Origin: Methanococcus maripaludis C5
GTDB taxonomy: Archaea; AGJL01; Methanococci; Methanococcales; Methanococcaceae
Direction: 5' to 3'
Assembly (NCBI RefSeq): GCF_000016125.1
Contig: NC_009135.1
Span: forward strand, 372,001-436,000
DNA length: 64,000 bases
The notes below the pieces were generated by a model that worked only from the letters and a program-made list of their open reading frames with translations, had not been told where the DNA came from and did not search any database. Positions 321-47,865 of the stretch are shown here, in pieces. Each line of letters opens with the position of its first letter. The stretch's first letter is position 1. The translations under genes and the position numbers were made by a program.

Positions 321-337
321 GTTTTCACCAAGACTAA

Positions 338-1384
338 TCATTTATACATCTTCATTAGTAAGTAAAGGAACATCGGAGCCCCTAAAAATGATGTTAATAT
401 TCCTACTGGGAGAATTATTGGAGAAATTATTGTTCTTGCAATTGTATCTGCTAAAAGTACCAATACTGCACCGAATATACTGCACAATGGAATTAAGTAT
501 CTGTAATCTCCACCGACAGTTATTCTTACAATGTGGGGACATATTAATCCAACAAATCCAATAATTCCCAAAAATGCAACGCAAACGGAAGTTACGAGGG
601 ATGCAACAAGCATTCCGGATAATCTTATTTTATCTGTGTTAACACCAAGGGATTTTGCAGTTTCCTCACCGCTTTCAAGAGCGTTATAGTCCCATCTTTT
701 ATGTATGAAGTAAATAAGTGAAACAGCGGCTACAAACGCCATAATTTTTACTTCTGGCCAGAGTGGTCTTCCAAGGTCACCAAATGACCAATAAACCATT
801 GCAGCTAACTGCATATCATCTGCAAAGTACTGTATAAGTGTGGTTGCAGCAGTAAATAGTGAAGATATTGCAACCCCTGCAAGAATCATTGCTTCGGGAC
901 TTAATCCCTTTAATCTTGCAAGTAGTAATACTGCACAAACGCCAAGCAATGAACCAAAGAATGCAAATACGGTTATTGAATATGGATTGTTTATTGCGAT
1001 ATGGCCGGTACTTTCAGCACCACCAATTCCAAGGGTAATTATTGCAACGCATGCACCAAACATAGCTCCGTGAGAAATACCCATGGTAAATGGGGATGCA
1101 AGCGGGTTTCTCAAAACACATTGCATTACTGCACCTGAAACCGATAGTCCGATTCCGCAGAGTACTGCAGCAAATATTCTTGGAAGTCTAATGTTCCATA
1201 TAACGAGGTTTGAAGCAGCATCTCCTGAACCAAGCAATGCATTTATGATTTGATTGATTGATAAATGGAAATCTCCAGTGCATAGTGCATAAACTGCTAT
1301 TACGATTAAAGCTATAATCAGTAAAAAACCAAATATCAGTTTTTTTAAAGTATATTTTTTGTAGTCATTAACAGAACTTTCCAC
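338..1384 (-). CDS. FecCD/BtuC-family ABC transporter permease
   Basis: Membrane subunit of an iron-complex or cobalamin importer, 348 residues, the usual length of the family. It has about nine to ten hydrophobic segments, and the family signatures IWNIRLPRIFAAVLCG near residues 63-78 and GLICPHIVR in the last third are visible. It starts with GTG behind an AGGGAT sequence. The downstream ATPase gene begins next to its stop codon, so the two form one unit. A TATA box and an inverted repeat lie upstream (1405-1442) and resemble the elements before the binding-protein genes. It is the only permease for three binding proteins here. Confidence 0.93.
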   Translation of the reverse strand: MESSVNDYKKYTLKKLIFGFLLIIALIVIAVYALCTGDFHLSINQIINALLGSGDAASNLVIWNIRLPRIFAAVLCGIGLSVSGAVMQCVLRNPLASPFTMGISHGAMFGACVAIITLGIGGAESTGHIAINNPYSITVFAFFGSLLGVCAVLLLARLKGLSPEAMILAGVAISSLFTAATTLIQYFADDMQLAAMVYWSFGDLGRPLWPEVKIMAFVAAVSLIYFIHKRWDYNALESGEETAKSLGVNTDKIRLSGMLVASLVTSVCVAFLGIIGFVGLICPHIVRITVGGDYRYLIPLCSIFGAVLVLLADTIARTIISPIILPVGILTSFLGAPMFLYLLMKMYK

Positions 1385-46332: not shown

Positions 46333-46342
46333 ACATTTATAT
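46333..46342 (+). promoter_or_regulatory. TATA box of the C/D sRNA transcript
   Basis: ATTTATATAC, with transcription expected to begin near 46364, before a hairpin leader and the C/D RNA. Confidence 0.5.
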
Positions 46343-46373
46343 ACTGAATCCGAGATACTAATGATGCAATTGA

Positions 46374-46401
46374 CGCATAAAGACCAAATGTTCTTTTTAT
46401 G
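46374..46401 (+). repeat. Hairpin in the leader before the C/D sRNA
   Basis: GCATAAAGA and TCTTTTTATGC can pair (two extra T's bulged) around an 8-base loop, within the predicted transcript just before the C/D element. Confidence 0.5.
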
Positions 46402-46403
46402 CA

Positions 46404-46465
46404 CTTGGTGGATGATGAACGGAGTAGCTTCTGATTTATGACGAAAGATGGGCGAGCTGACACCA
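46404..46465 (+). ncRNA. C/D box sRNA (2'-O-methylation guide)
   Basis: Complete archaeal C/D layout of 62 bases: terminal stem TTGGTG/CACCAA (6 perfect pairs), box C ATGATGA (46411-46417), 12-base guide, box D' CTGA (46430-46433), 3-base link, box C' ATGACGA (46437-46443), 12-base guide, box D CTGA (46456-46459). Spacers of exactly 12 bases are canonical. It guides fibrillarin/Nop5/L7Ae. By the rule of five, the targets are the U in AAGCUACUCCGU (fifth base) and the C in CUCGCCCAUCUU (fifth base). Target RNAs were not identified. Confidence 0.88.
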
Positions 46466-46472
46466 ATTTTTT
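46466..46472 (+). terminator. T-tract terminator of the C/D sRNA
   Basis: Seven consecutive T's directly after the terminal stem. Confidence 0.6.
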
Positions 46473-46487
46473 TATTCTGAAAAGCTA

Positions 46488-46548: not shown

Positions 46549-47865
46549 ATGGCAATTAAAAACGTTTCAATCGTGTACCCGAATAAATTTGGCGGGGGAA
46601 TCGCATGTCTTGCAGTGCATGTTTTAACCAACCACTTAAACAAGTACCACGATATTTCTGCAAATGCGTATCTTATCGAAAATTACTCGAAAATTAAGAA
46701 TAGTGATGCTATTTTGATAACATTACAGTATGAAAACGACTATTTTAACGTTGTAAAAATTGTAAAAGAATTAAAAACTCAAAATCCAAACGCTATTTTT
46801 ATTGCAGGCGGCCCTTGTGCCATTTCAAACCCCCTGCCGTTACATGAATTTTTTGATGTATTTGTTGTTGGTGAGATCGAAGGGACCGATACGATGTACC
46901 AATTGATAAATGGCAATTTTGAAATTCCTGGAGTATATGTTCCAAAAACATACAACAATGAAAAAATCAAAAGAATCTATCCAAAAAAGCTCGGGATAAA
47001 AGATTATCCAATAGCTCAAGTAACTCACGAATCAGGAGCTTATGGAAAAGCGTATCTTCTTGAAATTGGAAGGGGATGTATTAGAAACTGTAAATTCTGC
47101 ATGGCTAAATGTATCTATGCCCCCCCAAGATATAGAAAAATTGAAGATTTAAAGTATCTGGTCGATGAAGGCCTAAAAAATACTGATGCAGACAAGGTTT
47201 CTTTAATTGCACCATCTGTAAGTGATTATAGGTATGTACTGGATTTATGTGCGCATATCTCTGAAAAAAATGTATCGATTTCTCCATCTTCATTAAGGGC
47301 AGACACGATTACGGATGAATTACTTGATTATTTAAATTTGAAAACTTTGACAATAGCACCAGAAGCAGGCAGTGAAGTTTTGCGAAAAAAAATTGATAAG
47401 GGAATAACTGAAGAAAATATATTAAACGCAGTTGATATTGCAAAAAATCACGGAATATCCACGGTAAAACTTTATTATATGGTCGGTTTTCCCGAAGAAA
47501 CAGAAGAAGATATTGAAGAAATAATAACTTTAACGAAAAAAATAAAAGAAAACGTTCGAAAAGTAGATGTCAGTATAAATCCGATGGTTCCAAAGCCCCA
47601 CACCCCTTTTGAGGACTTTGAATTCGATATGGATTCAAAAATGAAGATAAAATATATCGAAAAGAGTTTGCGGAAAATAAAAGTTAGTGTTGATTTTGAA
47701 AAATTCAATTCTATGGTTGCACAGACAGTTCTTGCAAGGGGCGGGGTAGAACTTTCAAAAGTTTTAAATGAGTCAAAAAACACAATGCAACTTATTAAAA
47801 ATGTGGATTTGGATAACTACATTAATAAAATCGAAGAAAAGCCTTGGGATTTTATAGAAATTTAA
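46549..47865 (+). CDS. Radical SAM protein with N-terminal B12-binding-like domain
   Basis: 438 residues. The N-terminal part (residues 1-150: IVYPNKFGGG, AIFIAGGPCAISNP, DVFVVGEIEG) resembles the cobalamin-binding-like domain of COG1032 proteins. The radical SAM cluster motif is C-IRN-C-KF-C in GRGCIRNCKFCMAKC near residues 174-188. A SAM barrel follows, with KLYYMVGFPEETEEDI. The substrate is unknown; methylthiolation or anaerobic oxidation are possible. RBS GGCGGTA. Confidence 0.85.
   Translation: MAIKNVSIVYPNKFGGGIACLAVHVLTNHLNKYHDISANAYLIENYSKIKNSDAILITLQYENDYFNVVKIVKELKTQNPNAIFIAGGPCAISNPLPLHEFFDVFVVGEIEGTDTMYQLINGNFEIPGVYVPKTYNNEKIKRIYPKKLGIKDYPIAQVTHESGAYGKAYLLEIGRGCIRNCKFCMAKCIYAPPRYRKIEDLKYLVDEGLKNTDADKVSLIAPSVSDYRYVLDLCAHISEKNVSISPSSLRADTITDELLDYLNLKTLTIAPEAGSEVLRKKIDKGITEENILNAVDIAKNHGISTVKLYYMVGFPEETEEDIEEIITLTKKIKENVRKVDVSINPMVPKPHTPFEDFEFDMDSKMKIKYIEKSLRKIKVSVDFEKFNSMVAQTVLARGGVELSKVLNESKNTMQLIKNVDLDNYINKIEEKPWDFIEI

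Follow-up and report, generated by a model that had tools for sequence, protein, structure and literature searches.

The closest described relatives of the RNA presented here are the sR2 family of Rfam (RF01139) and the archaeal double-guide C/D box sRNAs described by Dennis et al. 2015 (PMC4644070). The latter work sets a main rule of nine consecutive Watson-Crick pairs, with a relaxed double-guide rule that allows a spacing of 100 nt. It also describes guide rearrangement between C/D sRNAs, and for M. maripaludis C5 it lists only 7 C/D sRNAs, with the A-loop free of guided sites. More generally, longer transcripts are a common source of mature archaeal C/D sRNAs, the flanks being trimmed around the RNP (reviewed in PMC7994747).

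Judged from its sequence, the interval 46405-46466 on the forward strand of the 64,000-nucleotide stretch of a Methanococcus-like archaeon analysed here (the window) is a complete archaeal C/D box sRNA. We consider it very probable (roughly 0.93) that this is an sR2-type C/D sRNA with a promoter of its own, whose transcript is cut back to about 62 nt and assembled into an RNP that methylates 23S rRNA at positions which we take to be U2438 and C2558 in E. coli numbering. In such an RNP, the kink-turn (C/D) and kink-loop (C'/D') of the sRNA would be the binding sites of L7Ae, Nop5 and fibrillarin. Pairing of the two guides with domain V of 23S rRNA would make U2438 face the fifth nucleotide before D' and C2558 the fifth before D, and fibrillarin would methylate the 2'-OH of both. 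This reading rests on anatomy, family match, conservation, covariation, complementarity and the presence of fibrillarin and Nop5, from which we infer transcription, RNP assembly and methylation. An sR2-type C/D box sRNA is a known, already catalogued kind of RNA and conceptually ordinary. What gives it weight is that, in a lineage where C/D sRNAs are very scarce, an order-wide, well-conserved double-guide sRNA appears to target the peptidyl transferase region, and that its guides yield two precise methylation predictions in culturable organisms.

Anatomy and family identity

The features of the locus, all on the forward strand, are as follows.

46336-46343, +, TATA box TTTATATA, perfect, probable promoter (from sequence, with a predicted start near 46366)
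46366-46404, +, predicted 5' leader of the precursor (length estimated from the TATA position)
46405-46466, +, C/D box sRNA body, stem to stem (Rfam sR2 match and orthologs)
46405-46410, +, 5' arm of the terminal stem, TTGGTG (pairs with 46461-46466)
46412-46418, +, box C, ATGATGA (invariant in the alignment)
46419-46430, +, D' guide ACGGAGTAGCTT, 12 nt (predicted target U, 23S 2502)
46431-46434, +, box D', CTGA (invariant in the alignment)
between D' and C', +, spacer TTT (read from the sequence)
46438-46444, +, box C', ATGACGA (from sequence; RTGATGA in most relatives)
46445-46456, +, D guide AAGATGGGCGAG, 12 nt (predicted target C, 23S 2622)
46457-46460, +, box D, CTGA (invariant in the alignment)
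46461-46466, +, 3' arm of the terminal stem, CACCAA (pairs with 46405-46410)
46467-46473, +, T-tract TTTTTTT, probable archaeal terminator (directly 3' of the stem; a T-rich run in most relatives)

An earlier note had claimed that all C/D elements are present, with two guides of 12 bases, a perfect terminal stem and a T-tract directly after, and each of these elements is borne out by the list above. Boxes C (RUGAUGA), D', C' and D (CUGA) follow one another in order within an RNA of 50-70 nt, both guides, at 12 nt each, have the length expected upstream of D' and D (~10-12 nt), a perfect stem of 6 bp (TTGGTG/CACCAA) closes the C/D kink-turn, and seven T follow it. As a regular expression, this layout occurs once in the window, at 46405-46466, and in none of 60 first-order Markov shuffles of it. 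A similar pattern run over the whole 1.79 Mb genome, too strict for counting the full set of C/D sRNAs, matches this sRNA alone, with no match in the reversed control. A thermodynamic fold of the free RNA carries no information (z -0.9), as expected of guides kept single-stranded in the RNP.

The family assignment comes from Rfam RF01139 (sR2), which matches 46408-46462 over its full model (1-57) with 55.8 bits against a curated gathering cut-off of 42 bits (E 2e-9 for the full window). The boxes are the same and the D' guide is related (GGAGnAG). In contrast to the consensus, the C'-to-D interval is two bases shorter here and the D guide reads GAUGGGCGAG rather than GAUGGCgGcu, so the shared family name does not establish the same targets as those of crenarchaeal sR2. 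With the double-guide sRNAs of Dennis et al. (PMC4644070) the RNA shares boxes, spacing and two guides at nearby domain V sites, within the helix 90-93 hotspot region. The core proteins fibrillarin and Nop5 are both encoded, by adjacent genes elsewhere in the genome (327.6 and 231.4 bits).

Conservation across the order

Orthologs of sR2 were found in 34 of the 36 genomes of the order, including all 27 of good quality; the two genomes lacking one are incomplete assemblies. A search at phylum level added no genome to these 36, and the records of named relatives belong to Methanococcaceae and Methanocaldococcaceae. Boxes C, D' and D are invariant in 28 aligned copies. The terminal stem varies in a coordinated manner: 4 of its 6 pairs change on both sides, one of them being U-A in 15 copies and C-G in 11. 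Altogether both sides changed in 18 cells, where 8.0 were expected, a comparison inflated by relatedness, and none of 500 shuffles reached the observed value; slid pairings score lower as well. Hardly any change is seen in the guide cores, CGG(A or UG)GUAGCU for D' and GAUGGGCGA for D, in contrast to the outermost guide bases and the flanks, which vary, and both 23S targets are identical in all 19 genomes read. With Rfam score, order-wide orthologs, a stem that covaries, a pattern of guide conservation in line with the predicted rRNA duplexes and encoded fibrillarin and Nop5 taken together, the earlier identification of an intergenic C/D box sRNA stands.

One departure from this conservation concerns the D guide. 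Three genus-mates (G018-G020) carry an identical stem and D' guide and a wholly different D guide, UUUUGAUCCUA. The only exact complement of the swapped guide in those genomes is the sRNA itself, and a site near position 1387 of 16S rRNA was set aside as a weak match with G.U at the modification position; no convincing rRNA target was found for it. The swapped guide, TTTTGATCCTA, lies within sR2 loci at L106:699-760 (+), L107:726-787 (+) and L108:682-743 (-).

Predicted targets in 23S rRNA

Scanning 16S rRNA, 23S rRNA and all 36 tRNAs gave best complements of both guides in domain V of 23S rRNA, 120 nt apart, each spanning the fifth position upstream of its box, though imperfectly. For the D' guide the complement is AAGCTACCCCGG at 23S 2498-2509, and the duplex with AAGCUACCCCGG consists of seven pairs, one A.C mismatch and three further pairs, with the fifth nucleotide facing U2502. 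For the D guide it is TTCGCCCATT at 23S 2618-2627; the duplex with UUCGCCCAUU runs unbroken for ten pairs, the first and the last being G.U, and its fifth nucleotide faces C2622. A further pair is possible between the first base of box D and the preceding G of 23S, giving 10-11 contiguous pairs, and many relatives have A rather than G as the last base of the D guide, which turns the first-pair G.U into A-U. The earlier note had expected each guide to predict a methylation target, a U and a C, and had proposed a search of rRNA and tRNA for complements; the search delivered both nucleotides, by way of the imperfect duplexes just described. By alignment to the conserved GGGGAUAAC and A-loop sequences, we take U2502 to be U2438 in E. 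coli numbering; C2622 is presumably C2558, in the stem of the A-loop. The A-loop positions agree with those in PMC4644070, which lists no guided site in the A-loop of M. maripaludis C5, in contrast to the site predicted here.

In this organism both duplexes fall short of nine consecutive Watson-Crick pairs. They are weaker than the main rule of PMC4644070 and would need its relaxed double-guide rule, whose 100 nt their 120 nt spacing slightly exceeds. Complementarity of a single guide is not significant, as about 20% of shuffled guides reach the same score; the paired placement is significant, with 17 of 5000 shuffled guide pairs giving two matches of this quality no more than 150 nt apart. 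The conservation footprint, which matches the predicted duplexes, is a stronger argument for the targets than these complementarity statistics. Complements in 16S rRNA are weaker than those in 23S and were rejected, and the 36 tRNAs scanned offered weak matches only, none comparable to 23S. On the sequence evidence, sR2 probably steers methylation of two nucleotides near the catalytic centre of the ribosome.

The interrupted D' duplex and alternative readings

The A.C mismatch is the eighth pair of the D' duplex wherever guide and 23S were both read, with the exception of one Methanothermococcus-like subclade. There the D' guide, CGGUGGUAGCUU, is one base longer; it gains a G-C pair, and a bulged U replaces the mismatch. 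With mismatch and bulge alike, complementarity is preserved to either side of the interruption, an argument for the 23S site as the true partner of the D' guide. Copies of the longer guide, CGGTGGTAGCTT, were read at about 1500-1560 in L030, L032, L033, L035 and L036 of this subclade.

An interruption of one kind or the other in every genome read raises the question of whether the D' guide methylates at all. The sRNA could be a genuine C/D sRNA in which only the D guide acts (on C2558), the D' guide serving mainly as an anchor or chaperone that holds a second part of domain V during rRNA folding, and chaperone roles have indeed been proposed for archaeal double-guide sRNAs (PMC4644070). We regard this as unlikely, as pairs 1-7 across the modification site are perfect Watson-Crick pairs and conserved, which should allow methylation, and the D' guide persists in the copies with a replaced D guide. 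A more speculative version, which we think quite doubtful, is that the interruption has been selected for, making the guide mainly a clamp that can let go of domain V, close to the peptidyl transferase centre, with a neighbouring guide that is freely swappable, as in the three genus-mates.

The conserved D' guide might alternatively be directed mainly at an mRNA, another RNA or a tRNA precursor, its 23S complement being incidental. A conserved mismatch is odd for an rRNA guide, and the insignificance of single-guide rRNA complementarity would fit as well. This reading is nevertheless improbable: the guide has no exact complement elsewhere in the genome and two one-mismatch sites, no more than the reversed control, the tRNA matches are weaker, and a single rRNA region of 120 nt accommodates both guides. 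As for chance resemblance or a dead remnant, for which imperfect complementarity and nothing else speaks, order-wide conservation and covariation contradict both, and the probability of either is negligible, given also the Rfam match and zero matches in shuffled windows.

Promoter, leader and genomic setting

Under the preferred reading of a methylation guide with its own promoter, the position of that promoter deserves attention. A TATA box had been noted upstream, and a perfect one is present; at 61 nt from the sRNA, an abnormal spacing for the mature 5' end, it is too far away to set that end directly. In most relatives a TATA-like box ends ~26-30 nt before GATGATGA of box C, which would place the start at the stem. 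The exact box found here recurs in the three closest genus-mates, and in these four genomes its distance to box C is 67-84 nt. Displaced ~40 nt upstream, it would direct a start near 46366 and hence a leader of ~40 nt to be trimmed off. As the promoter sequences suggest, a precursor with a ~40-nt leader is thus probably made in this organism and in the three genomes closest to it, and such a leader would need no new mechanism, since maturation from longer transcripts is common (PMC7994747). Within the predicted leader, 46375-46402 can form a weak hairpin (-6.8 kcal/mol, z -2.2 by RNA folding).

The sRNA sits between the divergent genes thiL (- strand), encoding thiamine-phosphate kinase (TIGR01379, above cut-off), and a radical-SAM gene (+ strand). 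The radical-SAM protein, at 46549-47865 (+) of the window, has a B12-binding-like N-terminus and is closest to TIGR03960, well under the cut-off of that model. An adjoining thiL is common to three genus-mates and to other genera of the family, and is not seen in the more distant family. The guide-swapped sR2 copies of G018-G020 have their TATA box at normal spacing, and the one in G018 has no thiL or radical-SAM neighbour over the 5.5 kb checked. G018 carries another C/D box sRNA candidate, at about 325-390 (+) of L110, which reads GTGATGA-AAAGAGGGTTAT-CTGA-TTT-ATGATGA-TTACACCTATA-CTGA.
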